From contig JAGLOO010000030.1 in the NCBI GenBank assembly GCA_023138875.1, positions 1 through 64,000 of the forward strand: a stretch of 64,000 nucleotides of DNA, given 5' to 3'. The DNA comes from Bacteroidales bacterium. Lineage in GTDB: Bacteria; Bacteroidota; Bacteroidia; Bacteroidales; GCA-2748055. Made by a program: the position numbers and the translations under genes. Shown here piece after piece: positions 3,586-56,562 of the stretch. Under the pieces are notes generated by a model. The model was given only the letters and a program-made list of their open reading frames with translations, did no database searches and was not told where the DNA came from. How positions within the stretch are numbered: the stretch's first letter is position 1; the number at the start of each line of letters is the position of its first letter.

Positions 3586-4556
3586 TTATGCGCTGATATA
3601 TCCCGGCTCATCACATAAACCAGTATGAACTATTCAAAAGAAGTTGAGGAGTTTATTCTATGGTTTGCTTTGTTTGACTGGAAAAATTGGATACGATGAC
3701 CACTCCGGGCCGATTTCAATTGACCATCCAAATGCCTTAGTGCTCTGGGTTTTACATTAGTTGCTGTATACCGGCACAAGGTGGTCACTGCTTCCGTTTT
3801 TTCCAATCAAATTACCCGGCTCTACCGATTCAAGGAAGAAGGCTACTCAATACGTTGTGTTAAGGATTAGCGTGAACTGAGTGTGTTCAGGACAATGAGT
3901 CCAGCCAACTTAAGACCATTCGGTAATTTGTTTAACAAGGCCTTCTCAAAGGAGATATTTAATGTCCCCAAAAATGTGATTTTTTCACCGCAATTCTTAA
4001 CGTTTTCTGTAATCCGATATATTTATTATCGTACACGACGGAAAACAAAACATCGTTTTACAATGTGTTCAGTTAAATAGAAAAACCCATTATTAATAAT
4101 GGCAGCTTTATTATAAGTGTGTTAACGCGTATAAATTCGCATACATGGTTAGACTACCCGCCTAAAGTTCAGAGATTATACCTTTGACACACCTGTCTAT
4201 AATAAACAATGTATCCAGATAATTTATCATACTCTAATGGGTATTATTACAATTTATGGGGCCGAAACACGTAAATATCCCCCCAAACAATTACTGCTTC
4301 TGGAAAGGGCCAAATTTCCGCATTAACCTCCCCCGTTTTAGAATATCAAACAAACGGACGTTTTTCAAGAGTACTTATAGAATAATAATCCATCCCCAAA
4401 TTTAACGAAGAACCAGTCTACTCCGTGAATAAAATTTCGTAATTTAATTGTAGTTATAAGGAAACTAAACCTATTACATCCCATGTATTTTAGTTGCTTC
4501 GCAATAAAATATGTTGTATTTTACTTACTATGCCGCTATTGGCAGTAGAATAATAT

Positions 4557-4563
4557 GTTAGAT
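4557..4563 (+). other. attC-like core site (GTTAGAT), 5' boundary of TIR cassette
   Basis: GTTAGATAGCCA is the near-exact reverse complement of TGGCAATCTAAC at the 3' end of the TIR gene (5291-5302). Confidence 0.5.
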
Positions 4564-4576
4564 AGCCAACGAGATT

Positions 4577-5287
4577 ATGCCATTAAGTATTAAAAAACTA
4601 AAACAGCGTGCAAGGGAGTACGTAGAAATGGAGGCAGACACCAAGGTGCTAAGTGTTAAATTCATTGAATCGTTTACTTTATTTGGCCGAGAAGATGTTG
4701 TCCTTTCCGTTAAGACGACTGATTTTGAAGATCCAGAGTGGTGGGTGGTAGCTGGTTCATCGCCCATGAATCTATATAGTAAAAGAGCAATTAAAAGTGA
4801 TGATGAAGCATTTTCCATGCACACTGGTTTGATGTTGCGAATGATTGCACTGCAAAATCCTAAAGGACCTGAAAGCGTAGGATACGATGCCTTCATTAGT
4901 CATGCAAGTGAGGATAAAGATGAATTGGTTCGCCCTCTTGCTGAAAAACTTGCTGAAATGGGTTTTAATATCTGGTACGACGAATTTGAACTACGTGTTG
5001 GCGATAGCCTACGCCAAAAAATCGATAAGGGTCTCTCTGTTTCGTCCTATGGAATTGTAGTTCTCTCAGAAGCATTTTTTGCTAAAAATTGGCCGCAATA
5101 TGAACTCAATGGTTTAGTCGCACGAGAAATCGATGGTGAGAAAGTCATCCTTCCCGTGTGGCACAACGTAACTAAATCAGATGTACTGAAATATAGTCCG
5201 TCGCTTGCAGATAAAATTGCGTTAAGCTCATCAGGCAAGACAATCGAAGATATAGCAAATGGGTTAGCTGAGGTTTTGAAAGAATAA
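4577..5287 (+). CDS. TIR-domain protein with N-terminal domain of unknown function
   Basis: C-terminal TIR: YDAFISHASEDKDELVRPLAEKLAEMGFNIWYDEFELRVGDSLRQKIDKGLSVSSYGIVVLSEAFFAKNWPQYELNGL; Glu in WYDEFEL at the catalytic position. Confidence 0.88.
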   Translation: MPLSIKKLKQRAREYVEMEADTKVLSVKFIESFTLFGREDVVLSVKTTDFEDPEWWVVAGSSPMNLYSKRAIKSDDEAFSMHTGLMLRMIALQNPKGPESVGYDAFISHASEDKDELVRPLAEKLAEMGFNIWYDEFELRVGDSLRQKIDKGLSVSSYGIVVLSEAFFAKNWPQYELNGLVAREIDGEKVILPVWHNVTKSDVLKYSPSLADKIALSSSGKTIEDIANGLAEVLKE

Positions 5288-5295
5288 AAATGGCA

Positions 5296-5351
5296 ATCTA
5301 ACAAATCACTATAGCAGACCGCAAAGCAGCGGCTTAGTTCCCCCGTTATAT
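5296..5351 (+). repeat. attC-like recombination site 1
   Basis: R'' ATCTAAC - 5 nt - L'' ACTA(T)AGC - loop - L' GCTTAGT - 6 nt - R' GTTATAT; L'' carries one extrahelical base relative to L'. Confidence 0.65.
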
Positions 5352-5375
5352 TAATAACCAAAAGCAAACTCAAGT

Positions 5376-6158
5376 ATGTTATTTCACAACACCTTTGGAA
5401 TACTTTTTCAAATCATTGTATATGTGATTGTTTTTATTCTAAATACAAGGAAGTATAAAAAATCCAATCCTTTCATCTACACTTGCATATTAATAATCTC
5501 GTATATTACACTTTGCACATCGTTGTTTATTTCTACTTGGTATCTCGAAGGGATCATTTTTCCTTCTGAGAAATTCCTTTTTACCAAAAACGGATATCAA
5601 TACTCCTTGATTTTTCTATCAGTTGGCCTTATAATTCAATCCGCAACAGTCTTTTTTACAAAAGACATACTTAATAGATTGTTTTTGCTTTCATTCATAA
5701 AACTAGTGTTTGATTTTTCCATATTCATTTTCATGAAATTCAGTATAATATCCAGTGTTTGGTTCGTAGTTTTTACTGGGGCAATGATAGGTTTAATCTT
5801 TGTAACACTCATAAACAACACTATCAAGTCCGTACTTAAAAAAGTAGAAATTCTTGATTCCGATGAAGAAAAAAAGGAGATTCTTGAATCTATAAAAGAA
5901 GACCAAAATAGATTTCTTCGGTTTGGAATGCAAGGAATCCTAGCCCTAGCTGCTTCCATTGGTATTAGTATGTCGATACTTTTCCAAGGAGGAGCAGGAA
6001 AATGGGAAGATCAAACAGTAATTATATGTTCAATGAACATGGTACTTGCATTTTCATTGATCCTGTTTGGGTTTCTAGCTTGGATAGTCAAACCCTATTT
6101 AAGAAGTTTTATGATGGTAAGATATTATTACCGGAGGTATCCCGATAATATAACGTAA
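5376..6158 (+). CDS. Multi-pass membrane protein, unknown function
   Basis: 260 aa ORF with several TM segments and a charged central region; lies between two attC-like sites. Confidence 0.75.
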   Translation: MLFHNTFGILFQIIVYVIVFILNTRKYKKSNPFIYTCILIISYITLCTSLFISTWYLEGIIFPSEKFLFTKNGYQYSLIFLSVGLIIQSATVFFTKDILNRLFLLSFIKLVFDFSIFIFMKFSIISSVWFVVFTGAMIGLIFVTLINNTIKSVLKKVEILDSDEEKKEILESIKEDQNRFLRFGMQGILALAASIGISMSILFQGGAGKWEDQTVIICSMNMVLAFSLILFGFLAWIVKPYLRSFMMVRYYYRRYPDNIT

Positions 6159-6258
6159 AACCTATGGGGATCAATATTTGAATATCATAGAGGAACAACA
6201 TATTATCAACATACTTTTCCGCTACTCATAAACTCCCCTAATATTATTACTCAGAAAA

Positions 6259-6345
6259 ATATAAAAATACACTAAACCGGACGCCGGGATCGCATACAGG
6301 TAATAGCATCTGTGGTGCGGGCGCCGCTTAGTTCCACTGTTGTGC
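6259..6345 (+). repeat. attC-like recombination site 2 (degenerate R'')
   Basis: ATATAAA - 5 nt - ACTAAACC ... GCTTAGT - 6 nt - GTTGTGC; same 5/6 nt spacers as site 1; stem ACTAA.CGG.CGCC/GGCGCCGCTTAGT. Confidence 0.5.
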
Positions 6346-6425
6346 TCCCAAAAATAGGACACAATCCATGTTGAACTGTATCCTTTTCTGTAACCTTTGT
6401 TTTTTCAATCCTTCTGTAAGCCTTG

Positions 6426-12264: not shown

Positions 12265-13311
12265 ATGGACGAAAGATTCGACCTTCTGACTACCATCGAA
12301 TACGGAGGTTGCTCCTCCAAGCTGCCGGCCGGACTCCTTTCCGAAGTGTTGAAGGACCTGCCTCTCTCCGTGGATCCAAACCTGCTGGTGGATGTGAATA
12401 CCCATGATGATGCTGGTGTATACAGGATCAACCGGGAGACGGCCCTGATATTTACAACCGATTTCTTTCCCCCCATCTGTTCCGATCCTTTTGAATTTGG
12501 GGAGATTGCTGCCTCCAATGCACTTTCGGATGTGTACGCCATGGGGGGCATACCCCTGATGGCATTAAACCTGATGATGTTCTCCCATAACAGGATCCCC
12601 ATGGAGGTTTTTGGAGAGATCCTCCGGGGAGGGAATTCCAAGGTCAGGGAAGCAGGAGCCATCATTGTGGGCGGGCATACCATCGATGACCATCCTCCTA
12701 AATATGGACTGGCAGTGATCGGTACCGTTCATCCGGATAAACTGATCACCAATGCAGGTGCCGCTCCGGGTGACCGGCTTATACTTACCAAATCCATTGG
12801 TACCGGGGCCATGGTTTCGGGACAAAAAAACGGACTGGCCAACAATGAGGATTACAGGAGGGCCCTGGACCAGATGAAGATGCTGAACAGGACCGGGGCA
12901 GAGACAGCTGTTAAATTCGGGATCTCTGCCATGACCGACATCACCGGATTCGGACTGGCCGGACATGCCCTGAAAATGGCAGAAGCCAGTCATGTAAGTT
13001 TCAGGATCCGGACCGAAAGCATTCCCCTGCTCCCGGGTGCATACCAGGTATTTGAAAAGGGCAGTATTCCCGGCGCCACATTTAAGAACCAGGAATTTAC
13101 GGGCGACCGGGCACATTTTACCAGGGGAGTGGACTACAACCTGAAAATGCTGGTACACGATGCACAAACCTCCGGGGGATTGTTCATGTCGGTTCATCCG
13201 GATCTTGCAGACCAGTTGGTCCGGGAACTGAAAGCTGACGATCCTCAGAACAGAGCAACCATTATCGGGGAGGTACTCAGTGAAAGTCCTCGCAGGCTAT
13301 ACTTTGAATAA
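12265..13311 (+). CDS. selD: Selenide, water dikinase
   Basis: AIRS/PurM-like fold sequence with Cys at active site (TIEYGGCSSKLPAGLL), DDAGVY, FGLAGHALKM. Confidence 0.93.
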   Translation: MDERFDLLTTIEYGGCSSKLPAGLLSEVLKDLPLSVDPNLLVDVNTHDDAGVYRINRETALIFTTDFFPPICSDPFEFGEIAASNALSDVYAMGGIPLMALNLMMFSHNRIPMEVFGEILRGGNSKVREAGAIIVGGHTIDDHPPKYGLAVIGTVHPDKLITNAGAAPGDRLILTKSIGTGAMVSGQKNGLANNEDYRRALDQMKMLNRTGAETAVKFGISAMTDITGFGLAGHALKMAEASHVSFRIRTESIPLLPGAYQVFEKGSIPGATFKNQEFTGDRAHFTRGVDYNLKMLVHDAQTSGGLFMSVHPDLADQLVRELKADDPQNRATIIGEVLSESPRRLYFE

Positions 13312-50170: not shown

Positions 50171-53098
50171 ATGAAACATAAGGTCCCCTTAACGATCGCT
50201 TTTTTACTATTCTCAATTTTTGTAGTAAATGCACAAAATAATAATATCCTTTGGACCGAAGATTTTGAAGGGGATTGGTCAGATAATTGGTATGTAGATA
50301 TTGGAACCTGGGAAGTGGGCACACCCACAAGTGGCCCCCAGAGTGCTTTTGTTGGGAATAATTGTGCTGCGACAGTTTTAAATGGGAACTATACTGAGCC
50401 TGTTGATTCAAGGTTAATCAGGTACACATCTTTTGTCGTACCGGCTGCATCAGAGAATCCTACCATTCGTTTTTGGCATTGGTGGCATTTCGCATTAGGT
50501 GATTGGGGAGAAGTCCAATTAAAGACTAGCAATGGAGAGTGGGTGCCCATTTCAATAAGATATGATGAGTTTGGGAGTGATGCCTGGTATCGTGGATTAA
50601 TTGATCTATCGGAATATGCAGATTCTACAGTTCAACTTGCTTTTTACTTCCATTCGAAGGGTATTTATTATCCTTCTGATGTAAATGCCGGTTGGTATAT
50701 TGATGATGTATCATTGGTTACGGGCCCTTATTTATTTAATAATCCGGAGGATTTCGAATCAGGATTGGGTGACTGGTCGGTTGAGAAGGGCACATGGGAT
50801 CTCGGAGTCCCAACATACGGACCGAGTAATGCTCGCGGTGGTCAAAATTGTTTTGGCACGAAATTAAATGGTCAATATCATGAGCCTGTAGATAGCAGAC
50901 TGATAAGCCCTCCAATTGAAGTACCGACCGCATCAGAAAATCCACGACTTCAATTCTGGCATTGGTGGAAAATCGCATTAGGTGATTATGGAGAAGTTCA
51001 AATAAAGACGAATAACGAAGCTTGGAACCCCATTTCAATTAGGTATAATAATTATGGGGGCGATGCCTGGTATCGTGGATTAATTGATCTATCGGAATAT
51101 GCAGATTCTACAGTTCAACTTGCTTTTTATTTCCATTCGAAGGGTATTTATTATCCTTCTGATGTAAATGCCGGTTGGTATATTGATGATGTATCATTGG
51201 TTACGGGCCCTTATTTATTTAATAATCCGGAGGATTTCGAATCAGGATTGGGTGACTGGTCGGTTGAGAAGGGCACATGGGAAGTTGGAGAACCAACCTC
51301 TGGGCCGAGCAAATCGAATGGAGGACTATACTGTGCTGGTACTATTCTAGATGGTAATTATCATGAACCTGTTGATAGCCGGCTCATAAGCCGACCATTT
51401 GTTGTACCCGCAGCATCAGAGATTCCTGCGGTTCGTTTTTGGCATTGGTTCAGTTTCGCACTCGGTGATTGGGGTGAGATTCAATTAACTACCGATGAGG
51501 GTAAAACCTGGAAAACAATCTCAACTCAGTCCATAAATACAAGTAGTGGATCATGGACACCATATTACATTCCTTTAACGTCATATGCTGATTCTACAGT
51601 TCAACTTGCTTTTTATTTCCATTCGGAGGGTATTTATTATCCTTCTGACCTAAGTACCGGTTGGTATATAGATGATGTGAGAATTCATGACAATTCAGAT
51701 CTGGCTGTTTACGCCGGCCCGGATGTAACCAGAGAATCTGGCTCCTCAGTGACATTAAATGCCTCAGTAAGTGGAGGGACCGAACCTTATGTATATGAAT
51801 GGATCCCATCAGATGGGCTTAGTGATCCAACCACATTAAACCCGGTTGCCACCCCCTCAGATACTACTACATATACCCTTAAAGTAACTGACAAGAATGG
51901 GTGCTTCAGAACTGATAAAATTATTGTATCTGCGAACAGTGGAACCAGTGGCATCAATGATGCAACCGATATCCTGTCTTACAGCTTTAGTAAGCCTCCT
52001 CAAACCGGAGATGAGGTCATCAATGCGGGTTCCCATACTGTTAACATAGAAGTGGAACATGAAACAGATTTGACGAATCTTGTTGCCACATTTACATTAT
52101 CGGATGGTGCGACAGCAACTGTCGGTGGAGCAGCTCAGGAGAGCGGAATAACTGCCAATGATTTTACAAATCCGGTAAATTATTTGATTACAGCGGAAAA
52201 TGGGGTCACAGCTCAGGGATGGATTGTTTCTGTTAATACACCAGTAGCTGAAGATGAGACTGATATCCTGTCCTACAGTTTTGGCATACCGCCCCAGACA
52301 GGAGATGCATTGGTAGACCCAGTTTCCCATACAGTTGACACTAAAGTTGAATATGGGACAGATTTGACCAGCCTTATTGCCACATTTACGCTCTCTGATG
52401 GTGCAACATTATCTGTGGGGGGGATTGCTCAACAGAGCGGAACCACTGCCAATGATTTTACAAATCCGGTGACCTGTGTGATCACCGCTTTAGACGGAGT
52501 CACAGTACAGGAGTGGGTGGTTACTGTTGTTGCAGCAGCACTGAACGATACCGATATCCTCTCCTACAATTTCGGTAAACCTCCCCAAATAGGAGATGCA
52601 ATCGTAAATCCGGTTTCCCATACAGTTGACATTGAAGTTGAAAATGGCACAGACTTGACCAGCCTTATTGCCACATTTAGTTTATCTGAAGGAGCAACAG
52701 CATCTGTGGAGGGAGCAGATCAACAGAGCGGAACTACTGCCAATGATTTTACAAATCCGGTAACCTATACCATCACCGCTTCTGATGGAGAAACAAAGCA
52801 GGATTGGACTATAACCGTCAATGTTGAAGTTGTCATTGGAGTGGATGAGCATACCAGCCATGCAATGAGGATCTATCCCAATCCCTTTTCAAACAATGCG
52901 ATCATTGAAATTTGCAATCCCGATCATTCAACCCTCACATTATCGGTTTTCAGTGTGTTAGGAAACAAAGTTTTTCAAATGGACGTGACCACATCAGATA
53001 AAGTAACATTGAAAAAAGGAAACCTCTCTGCAGGGGTTTACATGATTGTATTGAAGGGAGAAAAAGTACTTGAAAATAGAATGATTGTAATAAAATAA
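50171..53098 (+). CDS. Large secreted multidomain repeat protein with T9SS sorting domain
   Basis: Signal peptide; three ~161-aa jelly-roll/MAM-like repeats (FE..W...GTWEVG.PTSGP...WHWW..ALGD.GE); PKD-like segment; three cadherin-like repeats (DILSYSFG.PPQTGDA); C-terminal RIYPNPFSNNAII...GVYMIVLKGEKV. Confidence 0.88.
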   Translation: MKHKVPLTIAFLLFSIFVVNAQNNNILWTEDFEGDWSDNWYVDIGTWEVGTPTSGPQSAFVGNNCAATVLNGNYTEPVDSRLIRYTSFVVPAASENPTIRFWHWWHFALGDWGEVQLKTSNGEWVPISIRYDEFGSDAWYRGLIDLSEYADSTVQLAFYFHSKGIYYPSDVNAGWYIDDVSLVTGPYLFNNPEDFESGLGDWSVEKGTWDLGVPTYGPSNARGGQNCFGTKLNGQYHEPVDSRLISPPIEVPTASENPRLQFWHWWKIALGDYGEVQIKTNNEAWNPISIRYNNYGGDAWYRGLIDLSEYADSTVQLAFYFHSKGIYYPSDVNAGWYIDDVSLVTGPYLFNNPEDFESGLGDWSVEKGTWEVGEPTSGPSKSNGGLYCAGTILDGNYHEPVDSRLISRPFVVPAASEIPAVRFWHWFSFALGDWGEIQLTTDEGKTWKTISTQSINTSSGSWTPYYIPLTSYADSTVQLAFYFHSEGIYYPSDLSTGWYIDDVRIHDNSDLAVYAGPDVTRESGSSVTLNASVSGGTEPYVYEWIPSDGLSDPTTLNPVATPSDTTTYTLKVTDKNGCFRTDKIIVSANSGTSGINDATDILSYSFSKPPQTGDEVINAGSHTVNIEVEHETDLTNLVATFTLSDGATATVGGAAQESGITANDFTNPVNYLITAENGVTAQGWIVSVNTPVAEDETDILSYSFGIPPQTGDALVDPVSHTVDTKVEYGTDLTSLIATFTLSDGATLSVGGIAQQSGTTANDFTNPVTCVITALDGVTVQEWVVTVVAAALNDTDILSYNFGKPPQIGDAIVNPVSHTVDIEVENGTDLTSLIATFSLSEGATASVEGADQQSGTTANDFTNPVTYTITASDGETKQDWTITVNVEVVIGVDEHTSHAMRIYPNPFSNNAIIEICNPDHSTLTLSVFSVLGNKVFQMDVTTSDKVTLKKGNLSAGVYMIVLKGEKVLENRMIVIK
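50580..50802 (+). repeat. Intragenic direct repeat, copy A
   Basis: Nearly identical to 51063-51285 (offset 483 bp); only tttttaC/Tttccatt seen to differ across most of the span. Confidence 0.9.
51063..51285 (+). repeat. Intragenic direct repeat, copy B
   Basis: gatgcctggtatcgtggattaattgatctatcggaatatgcag... repeated from 50580. Confidence 0.9.
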
Positions 53099-53218
53099 CG
53101 GATACGTGTATATTGCGGTGCCACACTACTGCGAATTGTACATTAACATTATGCATTTCTTTGCAAATAATCTGGATTGAAAGATAATTGTGGCACTGAA
53201 ATATAAACGATGTTAGGT
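53093..53218 (-). repeat. attC-like recombination site 3 (long stem)
   Basis: Minus strand ACCTAAC ... GTTTATATTTCAGTGCCACA ... TGTGGCACCGCAATATACACGTATCC GTTATTT; long imperfect inverted repeat after higA-like stop. Confidence 0.45.
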
Positions 53219-53225
53219 GCTGAGC

Positions 53226-53531
53226 TTAAAGATCAAGTGTAAGTGTGAGATGTCCCCCAAGTCCATCACTTATTATGCGCATAAGAGTTGATAGCCTGAT
53301 ATCACTGGCATCATTTTCAATCCTGGAGATGTAGTTCTTTGTTGTGCCAACTCTCAGCGCAAGATCTTCCTGGGTCAACTTCCTCCTTTTCCTAGCCTCT
53401 TGAATTAAAACACCAATTTTAAACGCTTCAAATTCCTGCTCAAATTTTTCTCGTGTAGGCGTGCCTTTCTTGCCATATTGCTGATCAAGATGATCATCAA
53501 AAGACGTAAGATTCTTATTCCTTTTGCTCAT
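53226..53531 (-). CDS. XRE-family HTH antitoxin (HigA-like)
   Basis: LIQEARKRRKLTQEDLALRVGTTKNYISRIENDASDIRLSTLMRI. Confidence 0.92.
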   Translation of the reverse strand: MSKRNKNLTSFDDHLDQQYGKKGTPTREKFEQEFEAFKIGVLIQEARKRRKLTQEDLALRVGTTKNYISRIENDASDIRLSTLMRIISDGLGGHLTLTLDL

Positions 53532-53543
53532 AATATTCTTGTC

Positions 53544-53855
53544 TTATTTTTCCGCTTTAATAATCTCATTTTTAGGAGTTTTTCGGGTCTTCTTTTGAAA
53601 TCCGTGTAATAGAATTATTAATTTTCCTTCATCGAAGAAACAGAAAATCCTGTAGATGTTTCTATGGACCATTATTCTGATCTCATATATCCCATCTGAG
53701 CCTCTAATGTGCTTGAAGAACTTGGATGGGATGACTTCCAGGTCACGGACTAAGCCAATAACCCAATCTACTTTCTTCTTTACTGTAGGTTCCAGACTTT
53801 TATAAAACTCCTGAAAATGATTTCCATAATTGAAAATCTGTCTTCGAGATTTCAC
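53544..53855 (-). CDS. RelE/HigB-like toxin (Gp49 family)
   Basis: YKSLEPTVKKKVDWVIGLVRDLEVIPSKFFKHIRGSDGIYEIRIMVHRNIYRIFCFFDEGKLIILLHGFQKKTRKTP; toxin precedes antitoxin. Confidence 0.92.
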   Translation of the reverse strand: MKSRRQIFNYGNHFQEFYKSLEPTVKKKVDWVIGLVRDLEVIPSKFFKHIRGSDGIYEIRIMVHRNIYRIFCFFDEGKLIILLHGFQKKTRKTPKNEIIKAEK

Positions 53856-53970
53856 ATCGCAAAGTTACCTAATCGGGCAACCAATTCAAAGCATTTCAAG
53901 AAATATCTACTATTGGAGAAGCTTTGCACCTAACCCCCGGCAAACGATCATTGGATAAATGGCCATCGGG

Positions 53971-56562
53971 TCAATCATCCCTGACACAGCGGACAGAGAA
54001 CCCATTGCTCTTGGTGTAGTTGCCTCGGTACACTTCCGCGATATTGTAACTCAGGCTGCGGGCCCAGGCCGCCGAACCACTATATTCTGAAGTTGTCCAG
54101 AAAAGTGCACTGCTGCCAACGTTGAAGAAGGTGCCATAGTCGTAACGGTTGCCGCCCGGAAGGGCTGTAAATCCACTTGTATTGGTCGCGCCTATATTCG
54201 GACTATTCCAATAGGTTGTGCCGGTTTCTTTTAGTTTCCCACCCTCATTTGTTCCTCGCCAGCCTTCCTTGTCCGCTTCTGTCTGGATCATACCCAGATG
54301 CATTTCCAGCTGTTTCCACTCGTCATCACTGGGTAGGTGCCAGCCGGATGGGCATACGCCCTGAACACCACTCGGATTAGCAACACTGCTTCCGGTTCCG
54401 TTCATTGCCGTGGCCCAGGTATACAATGCCCCATAGGTGTTTCCGGTGGATGCGTTATTATCATTCCAGCAGTACGCTTTGTCACTATCCGACAGGCCAT
54501 CCCACATTGCATTGCTTTCAACCAGAGGAATGGCAGCTCCGTTGGCATAATGGATTGATTTCAGGTTCTCCGCCATCCAGGTTTGGTCTCCAATCACAAC
54601 GGTTTGATAATAATTGCCGTCATAATCAGAAATTAGTTCACTGCTTGTTAAGAAATTTAGTTCATTTCCGTAACTCGTTCCTAAACTATTGGTTGCATAA
54701 GCCCTAACATAATAAGTGGTTAATGGATTCAACCCCGAAATATCACTGGTAAAGCTTCCTGTTCCAGTTCCATCAGTTGTGAGGTTATCAGAGGTAGTCG
54801 GACCTGGAGAAGTGCTCCAGCAAACTCCTCTTGCAGTTACTGTTTCTCCTCCATCACTGGTGACATCACCTCCACCCTGGGCTGAAGTTTCTGTAATATT
54901 GCTCAAAGATATGGTTGAAACTGTTGGAACGGTCGAGGGACATTGACCTGTGATGAAACTTTCCTGAGTTCCATAAGCTGTGCCTGCCGAATTGGTTGCA
55001 TAAGCTCTAACATAATATGTTGTTCCACAGGAAAGTCCGGTAATTGCACTTGTGTAGGGTCCGGTGCCTGTTCCATCAGAAGAATTATTATCAGATATGG
55101 TCGGACTTGGTGACGTGCTCCAGCAGACTCCCTTAGCGGTCACAGTGCGTCCGCCATCATCTGTTACATCACCTCCTCCCTGAGCTGAAGTTTGAGTAAT
55201 ACTGCTCACAACTGTGGTGGTAACCACCGGAATTCCCCCCGGACAGGCACCTGTTGTGAAGCTAACCTCTTCTCCATAGGCTGTACCAACAGAATTTGTG
55301 ACATAGGCCCTCACATAATATTTGATTTCACAGGATAAGCCGGTTATTGCGCTGGTAAAACTACCCGTACCGCTTCCGTTGGTAGTGTGGCTGTCAGAAA
55401 TAGTCGGATTTTGAGAAGTACTCCAGCAAACCCCTTTTGCAGTCACTGATGCTCCTCCATCACTGGTAACATTACCCCCACCCTGAGCTGAAGTTTCCGT
55501 AATAGTGTTTACAGGTGAGGTGGTCACAGTGGGCAGGTTCACTGAACATTGACTCGTAGTAAAACTGACCTGAGTTCCATAAGTTGTGCCTGAAGTATTG
55601 GTCGCATACGCTTTTAAATAATATGCTGTTCCACAGGCCAGTCCGGTTATTGAACTTGTGTAACTTCCAGTGCCTGTTCCATCCGTTGTGTAACTATCAT
55701 TAATGGTTGGATTCTGAGAAGTGCTCCAACATACCCCTTTTGCGGTAACTGAGGCACCTCCGTCATCAGTTACATCTCCACCACCCAGCGCTGAATTTTC
55801 TGTTATACTGGTTACAGATGAGGTGGATAAAGTGGGTAGATCCGCTGTGCATGAATTTGTGGTAAAACTCAACTGCTGACCATATCCGACACCTTCTGAA
55901 TTTGTTGCATAAGCCCTTACAAAATAGACCGTGTTGCAGTTCAACCCATTTAAAGAACTGGTGAAACTTGCTGAACCAGTACCATCTGTAGTTCGAAAAT
56001 TCGATAAAGTGGGATTCTGCGATGTTCCCCAACATACTCCTTTCTGGGTGATCGAAGCTCCGCCATTATTTGTTATCTCCCCACCTGAAGATGCCGTATT
56101 TTCAGTAATGGTTGTTATTTCTGCCGTAGTTATTGATGGCACTGTGAGCACAGTAACCTCACTGGTAGTAAATTCCAGTTCATCACCATAAATTGTTCCA
56201 CCATTGTCAGTGGCAAACGCCTTAACGTAATAAAGCATACTCGCCTCGAGTCCTGTTAAGGCATCCGAAAAAACCTCCTCCTTACTATTTGAACCCAATA
56301 GCAAAGTGGCATCATTAATGGTGGGATCTTTTAATTGTGAAAAACAGAAGCCGTGTTGGGTAACGCTATCTCTGCGAAAATCAATAATCTCACCTGCAAC
56401 TGAACATGAATTATGTGTGATGTCAGAAACCGAACGGGTTTTTACAATTAGTTTCTTTACAGGATCCAAACGCTCACATCCACCGGAAATCACAAATAAT
56501 GAGATTGAACCAACCAATAATGGAATAATGCTGTTATAAGTTATGTTTCTGAATGATCTCAT
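53971..56562 (-). CDS. Surface lipoprotein with ~6 tandem FN3-like repeats and C-terminal Fibrobacter succinogenes major paralogous domain
   Basis: Repeat TSVTSITENSALGGGDVTDDGGASVTAKGVCWSTSQNPT...; C-terminus DYDGNYYQTVVIGDQTWMAENLKSIHYANGAAIP...GFSVRCVRD. Confidence 0.92.
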   Translation of the reverse strand: MRSFRNITYNSIIPLLVGSISLFVISGGCERLDPVKKLIVKTRSVSDITHNSCSVAGEIIDFRRDSVTQHGFCFSQLKDPTINDATLLLGSNSKEEVFSDALTGLEASMLYYVKAFATDNGGTIYGDELEFTTSEVTVLTVPSITTAEITTITENTASSGGEITNNGGASITQKGVCWGTSQNPTLSNFRTTDGTGSASFTSSLNGLNCNTVYFVRAYATNSEGVGYGQQLSFTTNSCTADLPTLSTSSVTSITENSALGGGDVTDDGGASVTAKGVCWSTSQNPTINDSYTTDGTGTGSYTSSITGLACGTAYYLKAYATNTSGTTYGTQVSFTTSQCSVNLPTVTTSPVNTITETSAQGGGNVTSDGGASVTAKGVCWSTSQNPTISDSHTTNGSGTGSFTSAITGLSCEIKYYVRAYVTNSVGTAYGEEVSFTTGACPGGIPVVTTTVVSSITQTSAQGGGDVTDDGGRTVTAKGVCWSTSPSPTISDNNSSDGTGTGPYTSAITGLSCGTTYYVRAYATNSAGTAYGTQESFITGQCPSTVPTVSTISLSNITETSAQGGGDVTSDGGETVTARGVCWSTSPGPTTSDNLTTDGTGTGSFTSDISGLNPLTTYYVRAYATNSLGTSYGNELNFLTSSELISDYDGNYYQTVVIGDQTWMAENLKSIHYANGAAIPLVESNAMWDGLSDSDKAYCWNDNNASTGNTYGALYTWATAMNGTGSSVANPSGVQGVCPSGWHLPSDDEWKQLEMHLGMIQTEADKEGWRGTNEGGKLKETGTTYWNSPNIGATNTSGFTALPGGNRYDYGTFFNVGSSALFWTTSEYSGSAAWARSLSYNIAEVYRGNYTKSNGFSVRCVRDD

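Follow-up and report, generated by a model that had tools for sequence, protein, structure and literature searches.

A toxin-antitoxin pair packaged as a single integron-like cassette in a Bacteroidales genome and the apparent association of its attC class with XerA-like recombinases

Introduction

Integron cassettes are compact units of one or two genes that end in an imperfect hairpin with the order R''-L''-L'-R' and a GTT/AAC core. The start of each cassette is complementary to its own R'', and one strand of the hairpin folds preferentially. These features are shared by a type II toxin-antitoxin (TA) pair located in a 64 kb stretch of a Bacteroidales genome (GenBank assembly GCA_023138875.1, contig JAGLOO010000030.1, positions 1 to 64,000). 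This whole stretch is hereafter called the window, and it belongs to contig C24 of the genome that we label G000. Integron cassettes also occur singly at sites other than attI, and some carry TA pairs with their own promoter, as is probably the case here. TA cassettes are common in integrons (PMC8618304), and insertion of cassettes at secondary attG sites is attributed to Loot et al. 2024 in later articles (PMC12901181, PMC12444791). The insertion that is specific to the IntI integrase is reported to be indispensable for integrons to function (PMC8138268). Among complete genomes analysed with IntegronFinder 2.0, only one complete integron is listed for Bacteroidetes proper, in Salinibacter ruber (PMC9024848).

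Judged from its sequence, the TA pair is very probably a single mobile cassette that was inserted at a non-attI GTT between two convergent genes by single-strand recombination through a tyrosine recombinase. It would derive from a platform with a XerA-like recombinase and would resemble an integron cassette at an attG-type site, without being a product of a classical IntI integron. The hairpin belongs to a large family of integron-like capture arrays in Bacteroidota that seems not to have been described before. No description of XerA-like cassette platforms was found in the open-access literature, the scope of this search leaving aside subscription journals and preprints.

Architecture of the TA cassette

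The complete cassette is 835 bp long and occupies 53933-53099 on the minus strand, where it reads G53934^TTAGGTGC ... ACCTAAC-hairpin-G53099^TTATTTT. It runs from GTTAGGTGCAAAGCTT at 53934 through the toxin and then the antitoxin gene to AAGCTCAGCACCTAAC, the imperfect hairpin and GTTATTT. The 5' border, GTTAGGTGCAAAGCTT (53919..53934, minus strand), pairs with the cassette's own R'' over 9 bp, is mismatched at positions 10 and 11 (with an A.C at position 11) and then pairs over 5 bp more. This signature matches that of the 42 array cassettes discussed below. The core sites, ACCTAAC and GTTAGGT, have the forms RYYYAAC (R'') and GTTRRRY (start) and are mutually complementary, and crossover is expected between G53934 and T53933.

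The toxin (103 aa; 53544..53855, minus strand) is a member of the RelE/ParE superfamily that matches Gp49 (PF05973, 1.8e-21), and the antitoxin (101 aa; 53226..53531, minus strand) is an XRE/HTH_3 protein (HTH_3, 3e-12). This order, with the toxin first and the XRE antitoxin second, is that of Gp49/HigB-like type II systems of the RelE family, and the pair is ordinary in itself. An initial annotation of this DNA named it HigB/HigA. The assignment as a TA pair is sound, but the name HigB is used loosely, since nothing in the genome matches the HigB-like_toxin family PF05015 and the toxin thus differs from HigB proper.

The attC-type site downstream of the antitoxin gene is 126 nucleotides long (53093..53218, minus strand). 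It is composed of R'' ACCTAAC (53218-53212), L'' (53209-53189), a variable loop, L' (53125-53105) and R' GTTATTT (53099-53093), and 18 of the 21 positions of the L''/L' stem are paired. Only 14 nucleotides separate the antitoxin stop codon from the end of R'' (the median for array cassettes is 19), and the open reading frames (ORFs) and attC share one orientation. The bottom strand, which here is the plus strand, is the better folding strand (-17.1 versus -14.3 kcal/mol for the top strand, z -3.1).

The R' sequence (53093..53099, minus strand), with its G^TT, is probably the part that was supplied by the insertion target. Its TTA is the reverse complement of the TAA stop codon of the upstream gene (50171..53098, plus strand), which encodes a 975 aa protein with a C-terminal sorting domain of the type IX secretion system type and which is intact despite the insertion. 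The gene on the other side (53971..56562, minus strand) encodes an 863 aa Fib_succ_major lipoprotein. Before insertion, the target would have read ..CCGGGG^TTATTTTATTAC.. between these two convergent genes. The cassette occupies a GTT-type target, ..CCGGGG^TTATTTT.., that is part of neither an attI site nor an array, as is typical of attG-type sites, and no other attC of its class is present in the 64 kb of the window.

Promoters of Bacteroides have a -33/-7 consensus, and this is fitted by TTTG (53890-53887), a spacer of 19 nucleotides and TAACTTTG (53867-53860) within the cassette (53860..53890, minus strand). A related sequence precedes the toxin gene in several homologues. Because the cassette carries this putative promoter, as read from the sequence, expression of the TA pair need not rely on a promoter in the neighbourhood, and that the cassette is oriented opposite to the upstream gene is nothing unusual.

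These features suggest how the cassette might have moved. The attC bottom strand would extrude as a hairpin, in which G.T wobbles stand where the coding strand has A.C mismatches. The recombinase, for which we favour a XerA-like enzyme, would cut at G^TT and join the circular cassette to the target GTT. The TA pair could then persist by means of its own promoter and the protection afforded by post-segregational killing.

Significance of the hairpin and its borders

The inverted copies that the initial annotation placed around the TA pair, GTTAGGTGCTGAGCTT (53212-53227) and GTTAGGTGCAAAGCTT (53934-53919), are exact as described and match at 14 of 16 positions. A GTT..AAC repeat of this quality is only moderately rare, with 2 pairs in the window and 0-1 per shuffle. 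By itself the repeat is therefore insufficient as proof, since one other such pair exists in the window. The combined signature, comprising a 9-nucleotide run, the position-11 mismatch, pairing at positions 12-14 and a stem immediately after these, has a single occurrence in the window and none in 200 shuffles. Similarly, an anchored stem search of the 64 kb, using a stem finder and thresholds of our own, returned a single attC-like fold with a stem score of at least 10. This is the site at 53093-53218, which scores 14.8, and the best score among 60 dinucleotide shuffles is 12.4. Thus, no other attC-like stem in the window is as good as the long imperfect one earlier proposed as L''/L'. Rfam at gathering thresholds reports one tRNA in the window and nothing for the attC site.

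TA operons are common and terminators are often shared by convergent genes, so an ordinary chromosomal TA operon followed by a bidirectional terminator hairpin, with a coincidental inverted repeat, might be envisaged. However, this explanation is contradicted by the absence of a terminator pattern. It also runs counter to the shuffle statistics, to a second occurrence of this element in the genome, which has the same borders, and to a covariance model score of about 50 bits, and we give it almost no credence.

Covariation and strand asymmetry in the attC class

There are 42 array cassettes available for comparison, and the packaging of the TA pair on the minus strand matches such tandem cassettes, of which there are dozens in related genomes. 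Their starts were aligned with their own R'' sequences. Positions 1-9 are paired throughout, position 10 in 62% of the cassettes, and positions 12, 13 and 14 in 83%, 93% and 81%, respectively. Position 11 is unpaired in all of them. Pairing at positions 1-8 was a selection criterion, and positions 13-14 were unused in selection. When the comparison is made with the start of the next cassette instead, GTT alone is constant. For 46 cassettes, including that of the window, 94.3% of the start/R'' cells are paired and the covariation score is 0.832, versus 0.173 +/- 0.017 for shuffled and at most 0.14 for slid controls. Complete ORFs of 50 aa or more are present in 38 of the 42 array cassettes, and in each of these 38 the longest one runs the same way as the cassette. 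In many adjacent pairs, the next cassette begins exactly at the R' of the preceding one.

A transposon or miniature inverted-repeat transposable element would also have terminal inverted repeats, as the 14/16 repeat at the two ends might suggest. However, the sequence of the repeat varies between cassettes such that self-complementarity alone is conserved, there is no transposase, and the cassettes form head-to-tail tandem arrays. Many copies with identical termini were not found, and we reject this explanation as having next to no likelihood.

There is further covariation in the inner attC stem, where 15/21 pairs exhibit double changes, and the bottom strand has G.U-type wobbles that never vary. 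In the outer arms, the coding strand carries 47 A.C mismatches versus 4 G.T mismatches, and an A.C corresponds to a wobble on the opposite strand. Of 47 sites, 42 fold more stably as the bottom strand (p=4e-7; 17/42 in the control). This strand asymmetry is that expected for recombination via a folded bottom strand.

The class nevertheless differs from the attC sites of integrons, which have a 7-bp core. Self-complementarity extends over about 14 bp, with position 11 mismatched in every case (typically as A.C), and the hairpins have conserved G.T wobbles on the bottom strand. The earlier description of an opposite-strand integron cassette is correct as to packaging, but the attC is not of the classical IntI class.

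A XerA-like recombinase at the head of the arrays

Two other contigs of the same genome carry cassettes of this class behind a recombinase. On contig C9, an intact tyrosine recombinase of 282 aa is followed by a co-directional cassette whose attC scores 15. On contig C34, a truncated relative of this recombinase precedes five cassette genes or pairs, which encode DUF3784, GNAT, methyltransferase and DUF3795 proteins and a second Gp49/HTH pair. The C9 recombinase falls below the curated cut-offs for both XerA (NF040815, 213 versus 220 bits) and IntI (TIGR02249, 206 versus 265 bits), and it lacks positions 182-238 of the IntI profile, which take in the IntI-specific insertion. Its best solved relatives are XerA structures (PDB 5hxy, 4a8e). 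It shares fold, size and catalytic motifs with the XerA, XerC and XerD recombinases, from which it differs in its linkage to cassette arrays and in its score below the XerA cut-off; some of its relatives also have, as a weak match, HARP-like repeats at their N-terminus.

In a tree of 60 sequences, the cassette-linked recombinases fall in a clade of 44 rows (support 95/90) that is apart from the IntI clade. For other members of this clade no cassettes were found, and some of these come from outside Bacteroidota. The C9-type recombinase is in a separate clade from the XerD-type protein of the same genome. Cassette arrays as such are common to these platforms and to the IntI integrons of Bacteroidota. 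However, the XerA-like arrays identified in this work lack IntI, and their recombinase is co-directional with the array, unlike the divergent integrase of a classical integron.

Homologues of the recombinase at E<=1e-50 are found in 81 of 198 relatives. At 36 recombinase loci, scanning of genome contigs covered 181 kb on the downstream side of the recombinase, with 59 stems and 42 complete cassettes, and 302 kb on the upstream side, with 18 stems and 1 complete cassette. The arrays hold 9 cassettes in Flavobacterium enshiense, 6 in Algibacter onchidii, and 5 each in Seonamhaeicola aphaedonensis and Rufibacter sp. When recombinase presence is set against attC number in 148 genomes, the resulting table (47/13/41/47) yields an odds ratio of 4.1 (p=1.5e-4).

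These observations incline us, with some reservation, to the broader proposal that Bacteroidota harbour a second kind of integron. Such platforms would combine a XerA-like recombinase lacking the IntI insertion with long attC sites that recombine as folded single strands containing G.T wobbles. The outer arm would serve as a cassette-specific barcode of 9-10 bp, and single cassettes, including addiction modules, would be scattered over the chromosome. If this is true, there is a second lineage of recombinases in which the capture of cassettes via folded single strands arose or with which it works, and Bacteroidota, where integrons are regarded as rare, contain a large stock of cassettes that has escaped notice. 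The TA pair of the window would show that such cassettes also settle singly outside arrays.

In about half of 30 examined recombinase loci, the contig stops no more than about 500 bp beyond the downstream side of the recombinase. Breakage of assemblies at repeated attC sites may explain these ends, in which case the cassette numbers of metagenome-assembled genomes (MAGs) would be underestimated.

HARP binds or anneals DNA in SMARCAL1. Three of the XerA-like recombinases (loci L102, L112 and L114 in genomes G029, G091 and G122) carry N-terminal repeats of the form YN..I..IK.IPxAKWSRTLKAWHIP, and the extension of that at L102 has a weak match to Pfam HARP (0.05). By analogy, it is conceivable that these repeats bind the attC structure.

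Classical integron components and other possible origins of the cassette

The genus also possesses true IntI and attI. Contig C50 of the genome encodes a true IntI (TIGR02249, 367 bits) that is truncated before the catalytic tyrosine. Full-length IntI proteins above the TIGR02249 cut-off are present in 4 other genomes of the genus (with two copies in G014), and that of G016 is truncated. The attI core of these integrons (GCNNNNKGCAGTAGAA...ATGTT) recurs at position 4535 of the window, directly before a cassette at 4557. The region 4535-6350 thus comprises an attI-like site (CTATGCCGCTATTGGCAGTAGAATAATATGTTA) with no intI nearby, a TIR-domain cassette (4557-5347), a second cassette and short classical attC sites. 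Because the attI core of the genus recurs right before these cassettes, we regard them as a stranded classical array. They are of a different class, and the TA cassette is therefore independent of them, as had been proposed.

Given these components, the TA pair could be a cassette of the classical integron of the genus that IntI placed at an attG site. Favouring this alternative are the full-length IntI proteins elsewhere in the genus, the attI-like site and classical cassettes within the same window, and an IntI-linked array in G016 that contains an attC of the window class. However, the IntI of this genome lacks the C-terminal part bearing the catalytic tyrosine, and the classical cassettes of the genus have a short, different attC that the covariance model does not match. 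In addition, this attC class is found behind XerA-like recombinases across Bacteroidota, and none of 43 relatives outside the genus has an IntI above the limit. We consider placement by IntI unlikely.

Several points weigh against insertion from a XerA-like platform. The cassette is solitary, and neither an attI nor a recombinase nor another attC of its class adjoins it. Its attC scores 50.1 bits with the covariance model, but the site belongs to the training set of that model, which was built on 32 sites. The G016 array (L061 4742-5956, on G016:C481) is linked to IntI although its attC is of the XerA-linked class, such that IntI may move cassettes of this class too and cassettes may be shared between platforms. 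The link between recombinase and attC is not exclusive, because 41 genomes without a recombinase match at E<=1e-50 still hold attC sites, and the genomes compared are mostly fragmented MAGs. Unfortunately, a search of 149 genomes at the DNA level with the two flanks identified no orthologous empty site, so the insertion event is itself something that we infer. The flanking genes are members of multicopy families, and both this search and a protein search within the genus using the neighbouring caspase-like gene returned only multicopy paralogues of about 27-62% protein identity, with the upstream gene not in place.

The cassette might also be all that is left of a longer array formerly present here together with its recombinase. 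Decay of this sort does occur, as illustrated by the truncated recombinase on C34 and the truncated IntI on C50. However, both neighbouring genes are complete and convergent, the border falls on a stop codon, and there is no second attC or attI nearby, which makes a remnant very unlikely. Insertion of a single cassette thus remains our preferred explanation.

Dispersed sites and related TA cassettes

A covariance search of the genome, of which about 498 kb was also sampled directly, found 12 sites at 10 places; the E-values of the model are rough. Two of these places are the recombinase-headed arrays on C9 and C34, and the others are single (C10, C12, C19, C20, C23, C24 of the window, C41 and C42). 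Seven of the contigs carrying sites are absent from the training set. With 8 of the 12 sites outside both arrays, the earlier suggestion of several dispersed cassette insertions is well supported. A cassette start is recognisable on C20, C10 and C19 (with its first base changed on C19) but not on C23, C41 and C42; the site on C12 is at the end of its contig. Of the 149 genomes searched, counting this genome, 89 contain one or more sites at E<=1e-6.

A parallel to the window hairpin is a copy of 78% identity behind another gene (C34:60802-60924). Similarity between the two ends at R'' and R', and it is because of this that the cassette borders are placed there. The second Gp49/HTH pair of the C34 array is likewise packaged as a cassette (L010 11597-12270, on G000:C34) with a very good attC at 12286-12419. 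In another family, a homologue of the window TA pair forms a cassette with a different attC sequence (L063 4217-5120, on G116:C141), and the same contig holds a DUF262-like cassette with the attC type of its TA cassette. Among the other homologues of the window pair that were checked for such packaging, G116 alone qualifies.

One of the dispersed single cassettes (L217 153-2529, on G000:C20) carries a dehydrogenase-like gene and is located beside an apparent TA pair of the nucleotidyltransferase/HEPN type.

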